From positions 1 to 24,138 of IMG/VR virus record IMGVR_UViG_3300017727_000157: a stretch of DNA of 24,138 nucleotides. The stretch is one strand, 5' to 3'. Below are positions 1,940 through 24,138 of the stretch, piece after piece. The translations under genes and the position numbers were made by a program. The stretch's first letter is position 1, and every line of letters starts with the position of its first letter. The notes under the pieces are model-generated. The model ran no database searches and was not told the DNA's origin. It worked only from the letters and a program-made list of their open reading frames with translations. The stretch comes from a virus.

Positions 1940-2695
1940 CTAAGGATAACTTTTCATGACATCACTACCTACTGAGAATAGTTCAACCGGACTGGTATTA
2001 CTGTTTGTTAAAGTAAATTCCATGTAATATCCTAAAACACCATGCGATTCCGCAATACTGTTTTTGTAGGACATTATAAAGTCTCCTTGTACAGGGATAT
2101 ATGCGTTAGGATCGGATGCGTCTACGGTAAGTGTATTGGCCGTCATTGAAGTGATTGATCCTACTAACTCAGGGGTTGTCTTTGCGTAGATAGCATCGCC
2201 TACACTTAGAATACTTCCTAAGGGTTCTGTGAATGTTATAACTGTAGCATTTGCAGCACCAGCAACAGCTGTAGCAGAACCTAAACCATTTGCAGATCTA
2301 AAGTTCCAATTTACAGTGTCAGCCTTACTTCTAATATATGTAAACCATTCTCCCTCTTTCTTTTCAAAATAAGCGCTTGCCATAGATCCACTGTTTAAAT
2401 CTGTATGTAAATCTGACACTGTCCAACTGTCGTCACTTTCTAAAGACAATGTTTTAAATAATTTTATATCTAATGTTGGTTTAGGATTAAACACACTAGT
2501 AATAGATGATGTTCCCTGAATACCATAATAGTTATTACGCAAAGAGTTTGTATTGTGTTGATATAAATTACCTCCTTTAAAAGAATAAAAGTAACTATTC
2601 ATACCAATCATAAAGTCTGGATAGAAAGTATAGAACGATGGCCAGCCTTTGCTGCCGTCACTATATGATAATGTTTGTAATGTTTCTATTGCCAT
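1940..2695 (-). CDS. Muzzle-associated tail protein (WPSFYTFYP module)
   Basis: A 251-aa protein. Residues 18-95 carry the pattern WPSFYTFYPDFM, then YFYSFKGGNLYQHN, RNNYYG, SSITSVFN and KLFKTLSLES. From memory, this pattern is characteristic of a module found in large tail hub / stabilisation (muzzle-like) proteins of short-tailed Bacteroidota and marine phages. Here it is a separate small gene rather than part of the 1722-aa protein upstream, from which it is separated by three repeat-protein genes. Residues about 137-210 (VITFTEPLG, LSVGDAIY, ITSMTANTLTVD) form a probable small beta-domain insertion like those in the 331-aa ring protein and the capsid protein. It most likely completes or decorates the tail tip. 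The alternative is an independent minor tail protein. Confidence 0.75.
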   Translation of the reverse strand: MAIETLQTLSYSDGSKGWPSFYTFYPDFMIGMNSYFYSFKGGNLYQHNTNSLRNNYYGIQGTSSITSVFNPKPTLDIKLFKTLSLESDDSWTVSDLHTDLNSGSMASAYFEKKEGEWFTYIRSKADTVNWNFRSANGLGSATAVAGAANATVITFTEPLGSILSVGDAIYAKTTPELVGSITSMTANTLTVDASDPNAYIPVQGDFIMSYKNSIAESHGVLGYYMEFTLTNSNTSPVELFSVGSDVMKSYP

Positions 2696-2705
2696 ATCTT
2701 TTTAT

Positions 2706-3647
2706 TTAACATAATTGAGGATAACCTAAATTCACAACACCACTACTATTTACTTGAATATAATTTCTGTTATTACTTCCAGTGCCACTTAAATAATAAT
2801 ACCCACCAATTAAAGTGGTTGTTCCAGCAGAATCACTGTAACAAGTATCCCCAGTAGCTGGCAGCGTGCCACTTCCATCGTGATAATAAGTTTGATTAGC
2901 TGGAGGGTTTGATCCGTCAAATGGACACACTCCGTTAAAGTTACCCATAGTGGATGAGCTGTATGATGTTAATGCTGAAGGACATGATGTGACAGAAGCT
3001 ACTACACCCGCTCCTCCTGTTATTTCTATATAAATCCCACTTCCAGTTGTAGCAATTTTATAAAAACCATTACCTAACACAGTAGTTTTACATAAATCAC
3101 TGTAGCATACATCTGTTGCAACCGGAGGCTGACCAGAAGATCCGTTATGGTAATAAGTTTGATTTATAGTAGCAGCACATGCGTTAGTTGATGTGGTTTT
3201 AACCAAACTAGACGTAAACGCTACCCCTACTGAAATTGTGCCAACACTAGCAACAACACCTGAACCACCTGTTATTTGCATAAACGTAGTTGAAGTTAAC
3301 TTATAATATCCATTACCTAAAACATTTTGTCCAGGATCTGAATAACATACGTTAGTTGCAACAGGCGTACTTCCTGAACCTGTATGGTAATATGTTTGAT
3401 TTATTGTTGCTCCACATGCAGCTGACTCGCTTGCTTCTACCGTAGAAGAACTGAATGTTGTACACTCACAAGTATATGTTGTACTTAAAACAGGTGTGCT
3501 AGGCGCACCCGTTTGTTGTCTAAATGTATTGCTAGACGTTTTGTACCAACCGTTTGGAGCCGCTGTTGTCAATGCCGCATTTGTATATATGGCTGTAGCG
3601 GTTGCAAAGGAAGTTGTGTTTAAAAAGTAGGTTCCTTGCGTGGGCAT
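2706..3647 (-). CDS. Repeat protein with one type-A and three type-B TYY...GYY modules
   Basis: This 313-aa protein is built almost wholly of repeats. The N-terminal type-A module (residues 5-62) begins MPTQGTYFLN and contains LTTAAPNGWYK. Three type-B modules follow at about 78-135, 157-222 and 241-313, with cores QTYYHTGSG, QTYYHNGSS and QTYYHDGSG, each continuing to CYSD and GYY/GFY and ending in an ITGGxGVV or VNSSGVV strand. The composition (Gly, Ser, Thr, Tyr, Cys; few charged residues) suggests an extracellular beta-rich, disulfide-stabilised rod. There is no signal peptide. The first 29 bases of the gene match those of the neighbouring 332-aa gene at 28 positions, indicating recent duplication or gene conversion. 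Its place after the tail-hub gene, which carries the same repeats at its C-terminus, suggests a tail-tip adhesin or fibre component. Function is inferred. Confidence 0.8.
   Translation of the reverse strand: MPTQGTYFLNTTSFATATAIYTNAALTTAAPNGWYKTSSNTFRQQTGAPSTPVLSTTYTCECTTFSSSTVEASESAACGATINQTYYHTGSGSTPVATNVCYSDPGQNVLGNGYYKLTSTTFMQITGGSGVVASVGTISVGVAFTSSLVKTTSTNACAATINQTYYHNGSSGQPPVATDVCYSDLCKTTVLGNGFYKIATTGSGIYIEITGGAGVVASVTSCPSALTSYSSSTMGNFNGVCPFDGSNPPANQTYYHDGSGTLPATGDTCYSDSAGTTTLIGGYYYLSGTGSNNRNYIQVNSSGVVNLGYPQLC
3619..3647 (-). repeat. 29-bp 5' coding repeat, copy 1
   Basis: These first 29 bases of the 313-aa gene are the same as 4632-4660 (start of the 332-aa gene) except for one base (G versus T at the third position of codon 2). 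Both encode MPTQGTYFLN. Similarity fades but persists through the codons for LTTAAPNGWYK, so the N-terminal module was duplicated or converted recently relative to the rest. Confidence 0.85.
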
Positions 3648-3661
3648 TTATTTTATTTTAT

Positions 3662-4660
3662 TTATGGGGCACAATTGCTTATTCCCGCTACATACCCGTC
3701 AGTTCCAGTAATATGAATCTTTTTATTTGCTGAGCCGTCTACATAGTGATAATGTTTTGGATCAGCTACTGCTGTACCTGCTGAGTTTGTAAACATCGTA
3801 TCACCTGCTACTGGATAAGTTCCGCTTCCGTTATGATAGTAAGTTGTTCCTGGCGTTAATGAACATACTCCAAGGAAGTTACCACCTATTGTAGCTGTAA
3901 ACGATGTTAAACTTGAACATCCAGTACAACACACATCATCTGCACTTGTTCCTACACATAAGCTAATTGAAGTTGCACAATCTGAACATGTAGTTTGTGT
4001 TCCTAAAGTTCCTGTTCCTCCCGTTACTTCTCTATAAACAATAGCTCCTCCGTTACCAGGGTTAAATGAATAGAATCCATTACTTGCAACTGTAGTTCCG
4101 TCAGCTGTACTATATAATATAGTTGAAGTTGCAAAAGTTGTTTGGTTCATGTAATATGTACCTGACACACCTGTACAACATCCTATTGCTGCTGTACTAC
4201 CAAATGTTAATCCTACTGCCGGGAAACATGTAGCACACGATACTGCTGTGCTTAAACCTGTTCCATCTTCTGCATCACTTGTTTTTTCTCTACTTTGAGA
4301 ACTATATGAATAAAATTGATTAGCTGCAAAACTACTCAATAATGGATTTGTATAAATACTGTTTGTTGCTGTAAAAGAAGTTTCTACATAAAATGATGAA
4401 GTAGTCCCAGAACAACATGCTGCGAATGCTGACGCTCCGTAACCTAAAGTCAAAAGAACTCCACATGTAGTACATGCAGCTGAAGGGCCTAGCGCACCAG
4501 TACCTCCAGTTACCTCTCTATAAACATTGTTATTGTCTTTATACCATCCGTTAGGAGCAGCTGTTGTTAACGTTGCTTCTGTATATATATTTGTAGCAGT
4601 GTTGGCGTTTCCTGAAGCCCAGACTGTATCATTTAAAAAGTAGGTTCCTTGCGTTGGCAT
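3662..4660 (-). CDS. Cysteine-rich repeat protein with three type-A and one type-B modules
   Basis: This 332-aa paralogue of the flanking repeat genes also begins MPTQGTYFLN. Type-A modules span about residues 5-85, 88-164 and 167-249, and a type-B module (TTYYHNGSG core) spans 251-332. Each type-A unit runs TYY/TYF, then a YT or YS turn, then GWYK/GFYS, often REVTGGTG, then a cysteine cluster. In the third unit the cysteines lie at 225, 228, 235, 244, 245 and 248 (CxxC, C, CCxxC). Units 1 and 2 keep only CxxC and CC (63/66/82/83 and 142/145/161/162). The clusters could form disulfides or bind a metal. No signal peptide or catalytic motif is seen. Context within the tail gene block implies a structural or receptor-binding virion protein. 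A 60-base gap separates it from the previous gene. Confidence 0.8.
   Translation of the reverse strand: MPTQGTYFLNDTVWASGNANTATNIYTEATLTTAAPNGWYKDNNNVYREVTGGTGALGPSAACTTCGVLLTLGYGASAFAACCSGTTSSFYVETSFTATNSIYTNPLLSSFAANQFYSYSSQSREKTSDAEDGTGLSTAVSCATCFPAVGLTFGSTAAIGCCTGVSGTYYMNQTTFATSTILYSTADGTTVASNGFYSFNPGNGGAIVYREVTGGTGTLGTQTTCSDCATSISLCVGTSADDVCCTGCSSLTSFTATIGGNFLGVCSLTPGTTYYHNGSGTYPVAGDTMFTNSAGTAVADPKHYHYVDGSANKKIHITGTDGYVAGISNCAP
4632..4660 (-). repeat. 29-bp 5' coding repeat, copy 2
   Basis: Partner of 3619-3647 with one mismatch; it encodes the identical N-terminus MPTQGTYFLN. The match covers only the start of the gene, so it is a marker of paralogous duplication rather than an insertion element or attachment site. 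Confidence 0.85.
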
Positions 4661-4678
4661 AAACTAATAATTTTATTC

Positions 4679-4692
4679 TTGTAAATTTACAA
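4679..4692. repeat. 14-bp perfect palindrome TTGTAAATTTACAA beside an A/T run
   Basis: This self-complementary 14-mer lies in the 60-base gap between the 166-aa and 332-aa repeat genes. On the minus strand it directly follows a T run, and it precedes the ATG at 4660. It has no loop, and the T run is on the wrong side for a minus-strand terminator. It may be an operator or simply A/T-rich spacer; I assign no function. Confidence 0.4.
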
Positions 4693-4720
4693 AAAAAAAA
4701 TATAATATCCTTAAGGTTGA

Positions 4721-5221
4721 CTAAGGAGTTCCACAAGCTTCAAGTAGCGCTACAAACCCTGTATTATTTGTAATTCTAAAAAACGTACTTGTTCCAGATG
4801 CATTAGTGTGATAATAATCATTAGCTAAAGGATTTACTCCGTTAGCGTCGGAGTAGACTAGCTCTCCAGCCGCAGGTATAGTTCCGGATCCGTTATGATA
4901 ATATGTTTGTGTATAGTTAGTGTCTCCACACACCCCGTTAAAAGTCCCTCCTATTGTTGCAGAAAAAGCTGTAAGTGTTGTTCCACAACCAACACAACAG
5001 ACTTCAGATGCTGAAGTAGAGTCATAGCATAACGACAATGCATCTCCACAGGTCGGACAATTTGCAGCTGCTTGCAGAATACCATTCACCTGTCTACGAG
5101 CAATAGTACCTAAAGAATAATAACCGTCAGCAGCTAAAGTGTTTAGCGCTTGATCAGTGTATAAAGAAATTGCATTTGCAAAACTTAATCCATCAAAGTA
5201 ATATGTTGCTCTTGTTGCCAT
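4721..5221 (-). CDS. Small repeat protein with one type-A and one type-B module
   Basis: This 166-aa protein is the shortest of three consecutive paralogues. Residues 5-79 are a type-A module (ATYYFDG, LYTD, DGYYS) ending in a full cysteine set at 55, 58, 65, 75, 76 and 79 (CPTC, LCYD, CCVGC). Residues 81-166 are a type-B module (QTYYHNGSG, LVYSD, NDYYH) ending in CGTP. It begins MATRATYY rather than MPTQGTYF, so it is the more divergent member. Only 7 bases separate it from the tail-hub gene upstream, whose C-terminus carries type-B modules and a remnant of the LCYD...CC cluster. It probably assembles at the tail tip. The repeat family is not one I can name, and receptor binding is an inference from position and composition. 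Confidence 0.8.
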   Translation of the reverse strand: MATRATYYFDGLSFANAISLYTDQALNTLAADGYYSLGTIARRQVNGILQAAANCPTCGDALSLCYDSTSASEVCCVGCGTTLTAFSATIGGTFNGVCGDTNYTQTYYHNGSGTIPAAGELVYSDANGVNPLANDYYHTNASGTSTFFRITNNTGFVALLEACGTP

Positions 5222-5228
5222 AATTTAT

Positions 5229-5984
5229 TTAACAATTTTGTAATCCATTTCCGTCTATATCTCCCGAGCCGTCAGTTCCAAACCATACGTTAGCAGCTCC
5301 ATTAGTTCCAACACTATACAATAACACTATACCTGTAGCAACCGTTCCTGTATTATCACTATATATAGTAGTTCCAGCACCGTCACTTGGCCCTGTTCCT
5401 GTTGTAGTATAATATACTTCGTCTAAAACTCCAGAATACATACACGCTGTTTGAGGGTTTGCTTGTTGTTTGGTGTTGAACGGATAGTAAGTTACCGTAG
5501 GGCAAGTTACTACCGCATATACTTGTCCAGTACCTAAGTTTAAATTAATAAATTCTGTTGAAGATATTCTGTAGTATCCGTCAGTCAACTTAGTCTGCCC
5601 TTGATCTGAATAACAGAAGTCTCCAGCTTGAGGCGCTGCATTAGCCCCAGTATGATAGTATGTCTGATCTATTGATTGTGTACATATAGTTGATATTTGA
5701 GGATCATTTACACTAGAATTAAATGCCTTTATTGCACAACTTCCATTACTAACAACCACTCCACTACCATTAACTTGTATCCACTCATTATTACTTCCCA
5801 CTTCATAATATCCAGATTGTAATCTTGTACTTGATGCGCTGTCATCACATGTGGAAGAAGAATAAACAGTATCACCAATTGAAGGTAATACGTTTACACC
5901 ATCATGATAATATGTTTGACTTGCAGGCTGTACACACGCTATAGCTATAGAAGACTGTACTGTACTTGATAAATATGGTGTACA
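5229..5984 (-). repeat. Three type-B protein repeats at the C-terminus of the muzzle-like gene
   Basis: Coding repeats of about 78-90 residues: residues 1472-1554 (QTYYHDG), 1555-1632 (QTYYHTG) and 1633-1722 (EVYYTTTG, degenerate). Shared landmarks are a Cys before the core, a YS turn 10-15 residues later, GYY/GYYR about 10 further on, a beta strand with GxGxV, and a closing Cys. They match modules in the next three genes, so the repeat cluster crosses a gene boundary and extends to 2706. Confidence 0.8.
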
Positions 5985-8900
5985 GAAATCTCCACAACCA
6001 CAACACGCATCACCGACTACACTAGCATCATAACAGAACGAAGCTGAGTTAGTTGTTCTGTAATCGTATATTAAATATAAGTATTGATTTTGAACAGGTA
6101 AATTTATTGAAGATATTGTTGCTTGATATAATCCACTTGAAGGACTGTTTACATCTGAGTTTGGCACTGTAGTTGCAGCAGCCAATAACGCATTTATATC
6201 GGTACTATTATTATCATACAAAGTGTTTGATGATAGCCATGCAAAATTATCATTGTTTACTACCCATGTATAGTCATCAAAATTAATTTTATTTGACCTT
6301 ACCGTTACGTTAGATCCTGAGTAAGGATATACACCTATTGATCTTGTTCCTGATTGTATAAAATATTGTGAAGCTATTTGAACGTCTGATCCAAAAGTCA
6401 TCATGTTTGATGCTACTGGACTTGATACATTAGCATCATTCCATTTAAATTCGTTATGAATAAACTTACCAACATCTTCACTTGAACTTATACCTACTTG
6501 AACTACTACTAAAGAAGTTTCTGTAGGACAGTTACATGTTATATCGTAGTCGGCTGATGGGTTTGGCGTAACCGTAACTAAAACAGTTGTTGGACTATTT
6601 TTAGTTTTATTAAAATTTAAACTTCCACTAGTTGTAGCATTACTTACTGAAGCTACTTGAGTGCCGTCCCAAACCATACTTACACTCATAGTTCCTGACG
6701 AAATAGTATAATCAAACACTACATTACCAATTACATTTCCTATTTCTATTGTATATTCTTGAGCACTTGTAGAATTTACTAATGATTTTTGTGTTCCACA
6801 AGGTAATATTACCGGTGGTAATGGTACTGTATCTCCATTAGTGCTTAATACATATTCGTCCATATACGGATCATAAGCTCCTAGTTTCTGTGTATTTAAC
6901 TGAACATTAAACTGATCTCTAAACCATGATCTCATTCCGGTGTCAGATATAACTTCTAACGCATCATTATTAGCTGATGTACCTTTTAGTTTTATTACAG
7001 CAGTTCTTTTAGTGTCGGTAAAATACATGTCATAACCCCAAGAGCTGAAGCTTTCTGGGTTGTAACTAATACCATACTCTTCTATTCTAGCTATTTGTGT
7101 TCCTAAAACTTGAGGCACTGATGCAATAACACCACCACCTGTTGAATCACTAATAAGATTTTTTCCAGTTAACACATAACTTATCTTATCTTCTTGCAAC
7201 ACAAGAATATCTGTTTCTCTTGAATGCAGTTTCATTATAGGGCCAAAGCTTGTTTCTAAATCTTTGAAATTTACTAACCCTAAATTAAATTCATTTAAGT
7301 TATTTAAATTAGAATTACTACTATATATACCACTGTATGTTAATTCAGCAAATCTATCTGCTTCTTTAAAATCTTCTTTTGACACCGCCAAAACTCTTTC
7401 ACCTAAGTTTACAGCTTGACCATCTAACGCATCTAATACTTTGTAACTTTCTACTCCATTTCCAAAAGTGTAACAATTAAAAAACGGTAATGTTACAATA
7501 GCATCTTGCGTTGCAGTTTGAGCTTGGTCTCCATCGCCATTACCACCCATGTGATAACCACCTATAACGTCATAAGCTTCAGATGAATCATAAAACAAAT
7601 TAGGATCTGCATCCGCAGGTTGTGTTTCCCATACAATTAAATTATTAGCTCTAGTAACCACTATCTCAGCTTCCATGAACCAAGTTTTCCCACCGTTAGC
7701 ACACGCAATTACCCCACTTCTACAAGCTAAATATAATGGAGAAGCCGCATCACCTGGCGTTGCTTGCCAAAATTGGAAGCTAGGTGTCCATGGTGCTGGA
7801 CATTGTACAGCTCCAGGGCTAGTAGCAATTGTATTAATAAAAACAGGGTTTTGTAACCTTCCATCACCGTCATCAATAACATCTCCTGCTGCTGGATTTA
7901 TAAAATCTCCCTGAAACCAAGCATGTAAGTCATCATAATCTTGTGAAGAAACATAAGTGTTTTCCCATATATAGTCTATACCAGGACATCCACTTGCATC
8001 ATGTCTGCCTATTCTCCATTTTATTTTTACACTAGACTGTGCTGGTATTGTATAGTTGTCAGTAACATTATTAGAGTCAGTAGTAAAAGCCGGATACTGT
8101 AAATAAGGAGTGCAATAAGATCTGCTAGTATCGGATGCAGTTTTTTCACCCGCATCAATAACAGCATTTGAGTCTAAATTAATACTAAAGTTTTGAGCTC
8201 TAATTTGCATATAAAGCCCCGCTAACTGATTAGAATCAGTAGGAGCCTCGCCCTCAAGTTCTAAAAAATTTGATGATTCAGCGCTAACATCTAACACTTG
8301 ACATGTGACCTCTCTATTCAGCGGCCCACTTGCATCAGTTTTAACAATTAATAAATCACCTTTCTGTACTTTGTTTTGATTATCACCTTCTAACTTAAAG
8401 TATATAACTCTTGTTGTTTGACTTTGATAATAAAAACTAGAATATATTGTCTCATACCCTCCTTCACTTGGTTTTAAAACAAACTTATATTTTGTAGCCC
8501 ATGTAGGGGGATAATTCTCTATATTAACTTTTATTTTATTTTGATCAACAGAAGCTGAAGCTGGAACAAAAGTTGTATTGAACTCTGAGACTAATACTGT
8601 AGAAGCCCTACCATAATCGTCCATATATACAATTCCTGTTTCATAGTCTCTATTACTATGCAGAGAAGATGTGTCTTGACTAGAAGTAAAAGTTCCTTGA
8701 CCTCTTGTAAAATAAAAATATTCATACACATCAGTCGTTCCTGAATTATACTTCATAGCTAACACTTGCAAGGAAAACACATTTGATCCTACTGTAGATC
8801 CTATTCTAAAACCTTGTTGTGTTTGAGAATCAATACTACTGTTTGATTTAGTAAACACACAATTAGTAGGAACTATTGTAACAGTGTTAAATAAGTCTGT

Positions 8901-10397
8901 TAACGAATTACCTTGAGTGGATGTTGCTAAAGGTTGAAAATTAGTATTCAAAACTGTACCAATACGTTCAGCAAATTCTATTGAATTTACCATTTCATAC
9001 ACTGAAGTATAATTTCTATTTACTGGAAATATTACAGATAATTCAAATGGAGTGTTTTCAAACGCTGAGTCATAACACGCATCACCGGTATCTCCATTTA
9101 ATTGAGAATGTTGTATAAATACTGTAAAAGCTAATGAAGATCCTTTGACTAATCTATTAGCAAAATCACTTAAATCAAAACTAATTTTAGAATTTTGTAC
9201 AGTTGTGTTTGTGTTAGGATTTATAGTATATACAGCTCCTGTTGACATTGTTGCCTCTGGCAAATCGTCAAATAATATATCGTTAGTAAATAACGATGTT
9301 GTAAAGTTAATAGGTATATCCTGTCCAGCTGCATTTATTATATCATACCCATCAGTATAGTTACCATAAATTAACCTATTACCCTGTATTGTTTGAGCTT
9401 GTGCAACTTTAGGAACATTGTCATATAATCTCAATAACTCATCGCTTCCTAGTACAGTATATATTTTACTGTTTGTAAAAGTATATGTTTGTTTTGAATT
9501 ATTAGCCCATCCATAGTCAGATTTTTTAAATCTTTCTATAACATAAATAGAATTACTATTACTTGGTTTAAATAATAAATCAACCTCGATAACTTTATCT
9601 GATCCAGTTTCAAACTGTACCTCAATAGAGTTATATATATTTTTCATTGAAGCATTATTGAAATTATTCACATCAAAATCAAAAGGCCCTGGTTGAAAAG
9701 CTGCGGTAGAAAACAACGATGTTGCACTATACTCATTGTTTACATACCTATATCTATAAGCAAAAGTTATAAATCTAGTTTCTAAATAATTCTCTTCTCC
9801 AGGAATATTTAAAAACTCTATACTTGGTGCAGGTAATGTGTCTAAAGTATCAAACCCTGGCGGTTTTAAAATAACACTAATATCAGTTTCTTTAATACCA
9901 TCGTTTATCCCTGCTGGATCCGGATAGTTTTGAGTTACATTTATTTTTCTAGGAGGATTTTTGTCGTCTGTCCAAAAAAGTAAATCTTCTATCTTGTTTA
10001 CTCCAGTAATTAAAAACTTAGGATCAAAGTTTAATACTTGTTTGCTAATAACATGATATGTTATAGCTTGTGATTGTACATTGAAAGAAACAATTAAATC
10101 TAACTTGCCACCTACAACAGGATTGTTTGCATCATGAATAAACCAATAGATAGTTTCTTTTGATCCATCTTGGTAGGCTCCTATACATACAGCTGAATTA
10201 GATAAATTTTGACCACCATAAGCTAGAGTGGTTAACTGTGTGTTACCTTTTGAATTTTCTACAGCACCTATTTCAGTGGTTTCTGTAGATCCTAATCTTA
10301 CGTTAATTGCATTAACATATTGGCCTGGAGGAACAAGACGTTCATCAACGCTCTTGTTCATTTTACCCGCAACAAAATTTGTATTTACTATCGGCAT
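5229..10397 (-). CDS. Large tail hub / muzzle-like protein with C-terminal repeat modules
   Basis: A 1722-aa protein, the largest gene here. The N-terminus (about residues 1-60: NTNFVAGKMNKSVDERLVPPGQYV, split here as NTNFVAGKMN then KSVDERLVPPGQY, followed by NAINVRLG and GAVENSKGN) resembles the start of tail stabilisation / muzzle proteins of short-tailed Bacteroidota and marine phages. A region near 1060-1190 (VLQEDKISYVLTGKN, EEYGISYNPESF, YFTDTKRTAVIKL, DTGMRSWFRDQF, GAYDPYMDEYVLS) looks like the beta-propeller-type core of those hubs. Residues 1472-1722 are three type-B repeats (QTYYHDG, QTYYHTG, then a divergent EVYYTTTG), preceded by a CYD...CCGCG cysteine cluster that resembles the end of a type-A module. 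It probably closes the tail channel and forms its distal tip. The hub identity comes from pattern memory and gene order; the repeats are directly visible. Confidence 0.8.
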   Translation of the reverse strand: MPIVNTNFVAGKMNKSVDERLVPPGQYVNAINVRLGSTETTEIGAVENSKGNTQLTTLAYGGQNLSNSAVCIGAYQDGSKETIYWFIHDANNPVVGGKLDLIVSFNVQSQAITYHVISKQVLNFDPKFLITGVNKIEDLLFWTDDKNPPRKINVTQNYPDPAGINDGIKETDISVILKPPGFDTLDTLPAPSIEFLNIPGEENYLETRFITFAYRYRYVNNEYSATSLFSTAAFQPGPFDFDVNNFNNASMKNIYNSIEVQFETGSDKVIEVDLLFKPSNSNSIYVIERFKKSDYGWANNSKQTYTFTNSKIYTVLGSDELLRLYDNVPKVAQAQTIQGNRLIYGNYTDGYDIINAAGQDIPINFTTSLFTNDILFDDLPEATMSTGAVYTINPNTNTTVQNSKISFDLSDFANRLVKGSSLAFTVFIQHSQLNGDTGDACYDSAFENTPFELSVIFPVNRNYTSVYEMVNSIEFAERIGTVLNTNFQPLATSTQGNSLTDLFNTVTIVPTNCVFTKSNSSIDSQTQQGFRIGSTVGSNVFSLQVLAMKYNSGTTDVYEYFYFTRGQGTFTSSQDTSSLHSNRDYETGIVYMDDYGRASTVLVSEFNTTFVPASASVDQNKIKVNIENYPPTWATKYKFVLKPSEGGYETIYSSFYYQSQTTRVIYFKLEGDNQNKVQKGDLLIVKTDASGPLNREVTCQVLDVSAESSNFLELEGEAPTDSNQLAGLYMQIRAQNFSINLDSNAVIDAGEKTASDTSRSYCTPYLQYPAFTTDSNNVTDNYTIPAQSSVKIKWRIGRHDASGCPGIDYIWENTYVSSQDYDDLHAWFQGDFINPAAGDVIDDGDGRLQNPVFINTIATSPGAVQCPAPWTPSFQFWQATPGDAASPLYLACRSGVIACANGGKTWFMEAEIVVTRANNLIVWETQPADADPNLFYDSSEAYDVIGGYHMGGNGDGDQAQTATQDAIVTLPFFNCYTFGNGVESYKVLDALDGQAVNLGERVLAVSKEDFKEADRFAELTYSGIYSSNSNLNNLNEFNLGLVNFKDLETSFGPIMKLHSRETDILVLQEDKISYVLTGKNLISDSTGGGVIASVPQVLGTQIARIEEYGISYNPESFSSWGYDMYFTDTKRTAVIKLKGTSANNDALEVISDTGMRSWFRDQFNVQLNTQKLGAYDPYMDEYVLSTNGDTVPLPPVILPCGTQKSLVNSTSAQEYTIEIGNVIGNVVFDYTISSGTMSVSMVWDGTQVASVSNATTSGSLNFNKTKNSPTTVLVTVTPNPSADYDITCNCPTETSLVVVQVGISSSEDVGKFIHNEFKWNDANVSSPVASNMMTFGSDVQIASQYFIQSGTRSIGVYPYSGSNVTVRSNKINFDDYTWVVNNDNFAWLSSNTLYDNNSTDINALLAAATTVPNSDVNSPSSGLYQATISSINLPVQNQYLYLIYDYRTTNSASFCYDASVVGDACCGCGDFCTPYLSSTVQSSIAIACVQPASQTYYHDGVNVLPSIGDTVYSSSTCDDSASSTRLQSGYYEVGSNNEWIQVNGSGVVVSNGSCAIKAFNSSVNDPQISTICTQSIDQTYYHTGANAAPQAGDFCYSDQGQTKLTDGYYRISSTEFINLNLGTGQVYAVVTCPTVTYYPFNTKQQANPQTACMYSGVLDEVYYTTTGTGPSDGAGTTIYSDNTGTVATGIVLLYSVGTNGAANVWFGTDGSGDIDGNGLQNC

Positions 10398-23324: not shown

Positions 23325-24138
23325 TTAATATTCTGTTTTAATATAACACTCCCAACCATGATCATTACTATGAAAACCAGAAAAACTTATTTTTATTTCA
23401 TTTGTATTTGCCGAAGGTAAAGAAACAGTTACGCCAACACCACTAAAATCGTTTGTTGCAACCGTAACAAGTGTTACAACACCTGTACCAATTTTAGATG
23501 AACCACCCCCATCATTTCTCCAAATAATAATACCATCAAATAATCTAGTTGGCCAGCCTGATACTCTAAGTCCTAATGTTCCTCCAGACGGGTTAGAGCC
23601 AAAAAGAGCTACTGGATCAAAAGTATAATTATAACTAGATCCTCCATAAGAAACAAAAAGATTTCTTGGGACACGCATTGTTGATCCAGTTGCTGTTGCT
23701 GCAAGAATTTCTCTATAAAACAAAGCGTCTCCAGCATTGTTTATTGTTAATCTAGAATCTGATAAAGTAACATTATTACCATTTACTTCATTATTGACTG
23801 CTAATATTAATTCGCCACGACCTTGAGTTGTAGTTCTTTTAAAGAATATTCCTGCCTTTACATAAGTATTATTACTTAGCATACTAAAACCAATACTAGC
23901 AGAATCACCATCTGTGTCATTTTCGTTTACTAAAAGTAAATTATTCGCATCTCCTGATACGTCACCAGTTACAGTTAATTTTCTACCAGGCGAAGTCGTC
24001 CCGATCCCAACTTTTCCGTTTTTAAGAGCTATACTACCTAGAAAACCACCTGTTGAAGCATAATTTTGTATTTCTAAAAAATCAGCTCCACTATAAGCAC
24101 CATTTATTTGAAAAGCAGCATAGTTAGAATCATATATT
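23325..24138 (-). CDS. Tail fibre / appendage protein, C-terminal part (5' end cut by window)
   Basis: The frame is open from the window edge to the stop at 23325, giving 271 residues; an internal Met at 23882 is not the true start because coding continues upstream without a stop. Near 23990-24015 it reads GKVGIGTTSPGRKLTVTG, the VGIGTTSP motif that marks the distal part of many fibre and adhesin proteins of Bacteroidota and marine phages. It follows segments such as AAFQINGAYSG and FLGSIALKNG. Downstream are beta-rich repeats (GIFFKRTTTQGRGELILAVN, AGDALFYREILAA) and it ends HSNDHGWECYIKTEY. In many relatives a C-terminal S74 self-cleaving chaperone follows this motif, but none is present before the stop. 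It probably binds the host surface. Confidence 0.8.
   Translation of the reverse strand, partial: IYDSNYAAFQINGAYSGADFLEIQNYASTGGFLGSIALKNGKVGIGTTSPGRKLTVTGDVSGDANNLLLVNENDTDGDSASIGFSMLSNNTYVKAGIFFKRTTTQGRGELILAVNNEVNGNNVTLSDSRLTINNAGDALFYREILAATATGSTMRVPRNLFVSYGGSSYNYTFDPVALFGSNPSGGTLGLRVSGWPTRLFDGIIIWRNDGGGSSKIGTGVVTLVTVATNDFSGVGVTVSLPSANTNEIKISFSGFHSNDHGWECYIKTEY

Follow-up and report, generated by a model that had tools for sequence, protein, structure and literature searches.

The window analysed here is the whole of the IMG/VR virus record IMGVR_UViG_3300017727_000157 (24,138 bases), and our subject is an array of small repeated modules that occupies the C-terminus of its muzzle-like tail protein and the three small genes that follow, designated g3, g2 and g1. 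The structural genes of the window all lie on the minus strand and encode a terminase (named through similarity to the annotated terminase of relatives), a portal protein, capsid-type and further virion proteins, the muzzle-like protein, the three small proteins and a protein of 251 amino acids (aa). The array holds 13 modules, all on this strand, five of them of type A and eight of type B, laid out as B+B+B at the muzzle C-terminus, A+B in g3, A+A+A+B in g2 and A+B+B+B in g1. A first-pass annotation of this DNA had described repeats across the muzzle C-terminus and the next three genes, and we confirmed them with the A/B composition that it gave; its total of about eleven modules was too low, and its own list also sums to 13. 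The features are given below from the muzzle gene onward, together with a short strand-helix segment, s, some copies of which were located with a hidden Markov model (HMM). Model quality is given as predicted local distance difference test (pLDDT) and predicted template modelling (pTM) scores.

5229..10397, minus strand: muzzle-like tail gene, 1722 aa; body, then spare s, then modules B1-B3
6000..6056, minus strand: spare strand-helix segment s of the muzzle (TTNSASFCYDASVVGDACC), directly after the body end YLYLIYDYR; segment HMM and reading of the tail
5736..5915, minus strand: muzzle module B1; B profile, 69 bits
5502..5663, minus strand: muzzle module B2; B profile, 72 bits
5232..5417, minus strand: muzzle module B3, the most divergent; B profile, 53 bits with itself included, 9.5 bits when left out
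4721..5221, minus strand: gene g3, 166 aa, A + s + B; model pLDDT 83.7
5057..5206, minus strand: g3 module A, gene-initial, without s in front
4991..5044, minus strand: g3 segment s (..DALSLCYDSTSASEVCC)
4733..4906, minus strand: g3 module B
3662..4660, minus strand: gene g2, 332 aa, A + s + A + s + A + s + B
4472..4645, minus strand: g2 module A1, gene-initial, without s in front
4412..4462, minus strand: g2 segment s1
4235..4396, minus strand: g2 module A2
4172..4219, minus strand: g2 segment s2; predicted strand 6-12 and helix 15-21 of the A-unit model
3986..4159, minus strand: g2 module A3; modelled with s2 (4234-3977), pLDDT 94.1, pTM 0.83
3926..3973, minus strand: g2 segment s3, before B
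3671..3844, minus strand: g2 module B
2706..3647, minus strand: gene g1, 313 aa, A + B + B + B, without s
3468..3632, minus strand: g1 module A, gene-initial, without s in front
3234..3395, minus strand: g1 module B1
2982..3158, minus strand: g1 module B2
2709..2891, minus strand: g1 module B3
1940..2695, minus strand: detached muzzle C-terminal domain (PF25729), the 251-aa gene at the far border of the array

The body of the muzzle-like protein matched phrog_14478 over residues 6-1461 (E=5.6e-245), and tblastn returned structural proteins of Cellulophaga and Flavobacterium phages. Relatives were found in 87 records of the annotated phage collection, every one below 60% identity, among them the Manatee Spring phage (41%) and phages of Flavobacterium, Cellulophaga, Tenacibaculum and Maribacter. 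The protein is homologous to a virion structural protein of phi13:2 (30% identity over 84% of the protein), a phage that serves as outgroup of crassviruses in PMC10172136. A phmmer comparison of the muzzle body with PDB sequences, the solved crAss001 muzzle included, gave no row at E<=1. The array sits between this body and the detached C-terminal domain, gene 2695-1940, which matched PF25729 (crAss_MUZ_C; E=9.3e-13, 48.9 bits against a Pfam cut-off of 27). Because the relatives of the muzzle infect flavobacterial genera, a flavobacterial host is likely, and the phage is probably a crAss-like podovirus of Flavobacteriia. The muzzle C-terminal domain has its own gene in the window and in phi13:2 (locus L051) and is fused to the muzzle in Elemovirus (L052), and the array lies exactly at the point of this split. 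A small gene stands behind the C-terminal domain in L041, L050, L051 and L052, annotated in L050 as an acetyltransferase complex subunit; it is absent at that place in the window.

For each module, a profile was made from the remaining window modules of the same type, and the module's score with it was set against those of 500 shuffles of its own sequence. Twelve of the 13 modules beat all of their own shuffles (24.5-66.4 bits; best shuffle among these, 12.8), and pure chance was rejected as the origin of the repeats. The last muzzle module, B3, failed this leave-one-out test (9.5 versus 9.7 for its best shuffle); it has same-position counterparts in relatives, and a separate gene of locus L123 ends in a module with which it shares 57% identity. 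The A and B profiles aligned end to end in hhalign (probability 94.5, score 37.2), with 100 column shuffles reaching at most 15.2. In cross-type scoring, all five A modules beat 500 shuffles with the B profile, and three of the eight B modules did so with the A profile; four other B modules were reached by one to three shuffles and the last muzzle module by 80 (of 500). By these sequence comparisons, all modules are copies of one small domain and A and B are homologous, which bears out the earlier description of the two types as diverged copies.

The predicted structures point the same way. The g3 model was built from an 84-row alignment (pTM 0.63), and the A3 unit of g2 with its lead was modelled alone from 54 rows. 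Lack of a common fold had been set beforehand as a result that would speak against a single domain; in the models of both types, the predicted elements follow the same order, namely strand, short helix, TYY strand, Y-T/S-D strand, GYY strand and a further strand. Since the strand-helix lead before TYY belongs to the predicted fold, the folded unit is about 80 residues long and starts before TYY. In BFVD, the g3 model had 14 matches at E<=0.001, all unnamed or uncharacterised, one of them gp62 of Cellulophaga phage phi17:1 (2.1 Å, 91 columns); the A unit had a single, unnamed match at this threshold, and gp62 was absent from its matches. Because gp62 is unmatched by A, the common fold rests on element order, profile homology and shared BFVD targets. 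One such target, A0A218MLI3, was matched by g3 (1.5 Å, 87 columns; which half of g3 is not told) and by A alone (2.8 Å, 88 columns). In the comparison with PDB folds, rows for propeller-blade, CROP-repeat and OspB folds (Z 2-3.6) were taken as common beta arrangements. Profile matches to the beta-trefoils Mitsuba-1 (E=4e-4) and ThreeFoil (0.03) covered only about 20 residues, with no stretch passing alone, and no trefoil was noticed among the fold-list rows shown, which excludes nothing. Weak fold matches (probability 0.63-0.99, E 0.1-1) were also seen to three phage proteins of BFVD named ClpP-like (A0A6J5QVQ4, A0A6J5SVL3 and A0A6J7X5L3), which are perhaps fusions with a module.

The four module proteins reached no family cut-off in Pfam, and a named known domain was rejected after scans of Pfam, PHROGs and NCBIfam, the last covering g1-g3 and four relatives and leaving the muzzle out; a well-known domain with a non-adhesive role, which would have told against the first-pass view, did not turn up in these libraries. 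Rows such as those for Glyco_hydro_20b, Lar and zinc ribbons were weak and under their cut-offs, and BACON (PF13004) gave no row at E<=1 for the four proteins with the Pfam profile, as distinct from the special crAss-BACON profile. The sole library family found to contain module B was phrog_21885, which matched g1 (3.6e-12) and g3 (2.9e-6) and gave no row at E<=1 for g2 or the muzzle. Its best stretches spanned profile positions 83-138 and 64-136 of 145, short of a whole-length match. The earlier statement that the modules belong to no named family thus needs amending in that B falls in phrog_21885, and holds in that the function of this family is unknown. Its phi17:1 member, gp62, resembles the proteins described here in having one B module at its C-terminal end and in being encoded after a tail protein gene; it differs in that B stands behind another N-terminal part, with no A and no array found. 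From its tape measure gene, we take phi17:1 to be a siphophage.

Relatives were gathered with the g2 protein (14 loci), with the muzzle (30 loci) and with two peptide patterns drawn from ten B modules. The patterns matched 265 stretches in IMG/VR; 188 of these passed confirmation, and the 80 best were retained. Loci L055-L132 were recruited by a B pattern. Against the phage collection, tblastn of g1 and g2 gave nothing at E<=0.01, g3 found the Manatee Spring phage (3e-8) and phi17:1 (E 7, not significant), an L107 array gene found only the Manatee Spring phage, and a fibre-locus gene of L069 found nothing. Removal of near-copies from 204 frames left 98 module genes. They comprise 40 separate genes at muzzle loci, 27 muzzle genes, 24 genes at most 1 kb from a Peptidase_S74 fibre gene (profile built on four fibre proteins, all four Pfam-confirmed) and seven elsewhere, three of which lie at most 4 kb from terL in loci with at most 1.2 kb on the other side. 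Many of the fibre-locus proteins have a different N-terminus (for example MALPSSGTIS...SEFYG, which we take to be a type of start found in phage fibres) and one or two B modules at their end, and the protein of L105 continues past its B module into a Peptidase_S74-like end (E=0.0011, under the Pfam cut-off).

The B profile was also run on 11 whole records, seven from IMG/VR and four annotated phages. Four of the seven (G002, G003, G004 and G006) combined an array with a lone B some distance away, and this B adjoined S74 genes in all four; G001 had the array only, G005 the array and a weak second match (E 0.009), and G007 a lone B only. Among the annotated phages, phi17:1 had one B, and none was detected in the Manatee Spring phage (which has one A), phi13:2 or Elemovirus. 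In the window, the start of the frame at 23325-23882 resembles by eye the middle of the 1153-aa S74 fibre of L069, its end differs, and no S74 domain was found in it. The contig ends near this frame, and any fibre-locus B gene of the L069 kind would therefore be located beyond the window. On a 114-kb contig, L082:7596-8222 encodes a B module preceded by a Gly-rich linker and a different N-terminus; neither a muzzle nor an S74 gene was found at this locus. Regarding a cellular source, a scan with one strict pattern, TYYH[TND]GSG[TS], gave two stretches in 84,980 species genomes, of which one was accepted, an 11-residue match in a Paceibacterota metagenome-assembled genome; divergent copies could escape this pattern.

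The two types follow a fixed order that the first-pass annotation did not mention, nor did it mention the s segments. Type A came after B in none of the genes, and 38 of the 40 separate muzzle-locus genes start with A, the two exceptions being fragments (L015 at a contig end and L131 reading in two overlapping frames). Fibre-locus genes carried B only (24 of 24). An A module inside a chain is preceded by s, which is predicted to be part of the A fold, and a gene-initial A stands without s. The muzzle carries a spare s where its body ends, and g3 and g2 contain spare copies as well. Models and counts together thus present an acceptor that lacks a fold element and a spare copy of that element in another chain. 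Among 27 hand-picked loci, which span all 24 clusters of the 55 loci at 95% identity, spare s equalled segment-less A in 27 of 27 (3=3, 1=1 or 0=0; L041 and L107 set by eye), a correspondence that is suggestive. Loci without a separate A gene were also without a spare s, as in L073, L075 and L076 (sAB) and in phi13:2 and Elemovirus (none).

In chaperone-usher pili, a domain that lacks one element is completed by a segment of the neighbouring subunit, which is known as donor-strand complementation. The likeness is one of analogy only, and here the lent piece would be a strand plus a helix. Type A would be the docking form, opening each separate protein without an s of its own, and a neighbouring chain would lend a gene-initial A the missing s, above all the spare copy that follows the muzzle body, a putative donor for the A module of another chain. 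The counts fit two routes for s, along muzzle-g3-g2-g1 or from the muzzle to the last gene only.

The order of elements in g3 (A-s-B) and g2 (A-s-A-s-A-s-B) could also be read as a circular permutation, in which each A uses the s behind it, g3 and g2 fold alone, and only the muzzle s and the A of the last gene pair between chains. The s total equals the A total under this arrangement too, and we regard it as possible, if rather doubtful, for two reasons: in L073, s precedes the single A, which is followed by a Gly-rich linker and by no further s, and s is confident in front of A in the A-unit model (pLDDT about 95; whole unit 94.1) and reaches only about 65 behind A in g3. Another arrangement suggested by position is that the spare s, which directly precedes B in the muzzle, g3 and g2, is a capping or linker element needed before a B block and has nothing to do with A. 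This appears quite improbable, given that g1 and separate genes of the L107 type have B blocks without s, as do the fibre-locus proteins inspected, that L073 lacks both an s before B and a separate A gene, and that the L050 muzzle has an s with no B detected.

In a tree built by a quick method from 61 columns, 163 modules were compared, taken from the window and from 26 loci, two of which share a contig; 69 of the 160 inner branches were left open. A and B lay on opposite sides of a supported branch, and most modules clustered by position. Position-wise inheritance as the sole account was rejected because exchanges were seen (L058/L080, L014, L123, L073 and L009). L014 carries five modules at the g3 place, of which the extra three are nearest to g1 modules (54, 56 and 42%), and the last two of these group in the tree with modules of L014's own g1 gene; L013 carries an extra B and an inserted domain at the g1 place. 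Similar modules occur in muzzle and separate genes (L123 and L073, the last muzzle module of the latter being 60% identical to the last g1 module). A fibre-locus protein of L058 and a muzzle-locus protein of L080 are 48% identical over 350 aa, with only the N-terminal 73 and 66 residues unmatched, and the array module nearest to the last B of three fibre-locus genes compared is B3 of g1 (60, 62 and 71% identity). Between L009 and L010, g3 is 99%, the muzzle tail 91% and g2 66% identical, and the g2 of L009 is 92% identical to that of the window; by these identities, L009 underwent a swap of the whole g2 gene. The first-pass claim that modules were added and swapped across gene boundaries therefore stands for additions (L014 and L013), copying (L014), swapping (L009) and the crossing of gene boundaries, with the qualification that the array order is mostly inherited by position and exchanges come on top.

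Other domains also occur at these sites. The muzzle end is more generally a cassette site: in phi13:2 it carries a Big_9/cadherin-like domain (E=1.6e-21), and after this comes a domain with 23% identity over 171 aa to an insert found in L107, to which it is related (E=3e-8, single comparison). An unnamed domain of about 180-200 aa (..GAIVVYF..PDG..) was seen with modules in L016:10512-11753, L107:6963-8687 and L058:1212-2462, that is, at both muzzle and fibre loci, with a relative in the phi13:2 (L051) muzzle tail. In L013:11012-12553, a domain with a YYCQYHSGMGG motif, presumably cupredoxin-like, is inserted within a B module, and the region matches PHROGs 708 and 677, named as baseplate wedge proteins. 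The muzzle tails of L041, L047 and L048 have a variant s with CQC, and behind it they show by eye a degenerate-B-like stretch (..PVVGSICYRYPTC..DGYYW..), which was left uncounted.

The array genes lie among tail or fibre genes and diverge faster than head genes, as would be looked for in receptor-binding proteins. Between the window and L010, terL, portal and major capsid protein are 95, 92 and 95% identical, and g2 (64%) and g1 (62%) are the most divergent of the nine parts compared. This divergence, together with the exchange of g2 in L009, counts against a non-adhesive structural collar, in which the modules would build a cysteine-rich shell or plug to stiffen or gate the muzzle and would vary in copy number by drift. 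Such a collar would agree with the cysteines of type A, C83 and C86 (reference numbering), which are conserved in at least 90% of rows, and with PMC10172136, where disulfides stabilise the tail barrel and fibre hubs of crAss001 and its muzzle is termed a likely gatekeeper. However, small proteins of the tail-fibre cluster also end in the B module, and a muzzle plug would have no purpose there; we consider the collar unlikely.

A literature search of titles and abstract openings, without preprints and with few subscription papers, returned no description of such an array. The closest and direct precedent for tandem tail domains in crAss-like phages is the BACON repeats of crAssphage and related gut phages, which occur in tandem in tail-associated genes and for which binding to the host surface has been proposed (de Jonge et al. 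2019, PMC6949934). Both systems have a small beta-rich domain in tandem in tail-associated genes of crAss-like phages, and the BACON arrays likewise include single-domain genes in some lineages and grow through duplication and horizontal transfer (PMC6949934). In contrast, the domain in the window is not BACON by Pfam, and its array extends over the muzzle and up to three more genes, has two types in fixed order with matching numbers of spare segments, and shares its module between muzzle and S74 fibre loci; its annotated relatives come from water, not gut. What sets the array apart from this precedent is therefore the different domain, the spread over several genes, the fixed order of two types and the presence of spare segments. 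The crAss001 muzzle, gp44, forms the distal end of the tail and has an exposed domain thought likely to contact the cell, and its length varies through insertions in exposed parts (Bayfield et al. 2023, PMC10172136). It shares the C-terminal domain of PF25729; in the window this domain has its own gene and is parted from the body by a module array of several genes.

Given the repeats, their homology, genomic contexts and exchanges, the polarity and the matching s and A counts, we propose, at a probability of about 0.55, that the four genes form a modular adhesion array on the tail-tip (muzzle) complex, in which A is a dock completed by s and B is the tip. Type B, always C-terminal to A, would be the outward, variable, cell-facing module, and the same module terminates small proteins at the tail-fibre locus. 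Where a similar B block is at the fibre locus, A is replaced by another N-terminus, which fits a role of A in fixing the protein to the muzzle. Host range would then shift through gain, loss and swap of B blocks and whole genes, and the data suggest a rapidly reshuffled host-recognition organ. The first-pass annotation had proposed a modular host-recognition organ; the tail-fibre context found elsewhere fits that idea, and we infer the surface exposure of the modules, their docking through segment donation and their binding of a host surface molecule.

Several observations weigh against this proposal. By HMM, and with near-copies included, the s count equals the A count in 49 of 55 loci, and the other six needed calls by eye. 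These six form two clusters: in L097, L101 and L107 a second s is readable below the HMM threshold, and in L041, L047 and L048 a CQC variant replaces CC. The muzzle tree shows just three joint changes of spare s and segment-less A, and much of their agreement is therefore explained by shared ancestry. Each A of g3 and g2 could be served by the s behind it, which would leave only one exchange between chains. Because recruitment relied on the B pattern, an A-only fibre gene would be missed. Comparison with PDB folds gave no trustworthy match for g3 (best Foldseek E 0.93, best Z 3.1) or for the A unit (best Z 3.6), and the fold is thus tied to no known binding domain. Divergence is uneven, with the muzzle tail (54%) differing more than g1 (66%) between the window and L013 and with g3 at 99% between L009 and L010, and high divergence could reflect weak constraint instead.

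If the adhesion array is real, recognition parts would be named in one crAss-like group and split into a dock and a tip that can be tested separately, and the movement of modules between muzzle and fibre locus without failure of assembly would be explained. The segment counts yield a precise prediction for modelling of the complex. More tentatively, the tail tip might be a branched, self-docking organ, ordered muzzle, g3, g2, g1, in which each separate protein opens with a domain short of a strand and a helix, each upstream protein, the muzzle first, offers exactly one spare s directly before its tip modules, and g1, which has none, acts as terminator. In such an organ, the number of genes would set the number of branches, and B blocks could be exchanged without breaking assembly.

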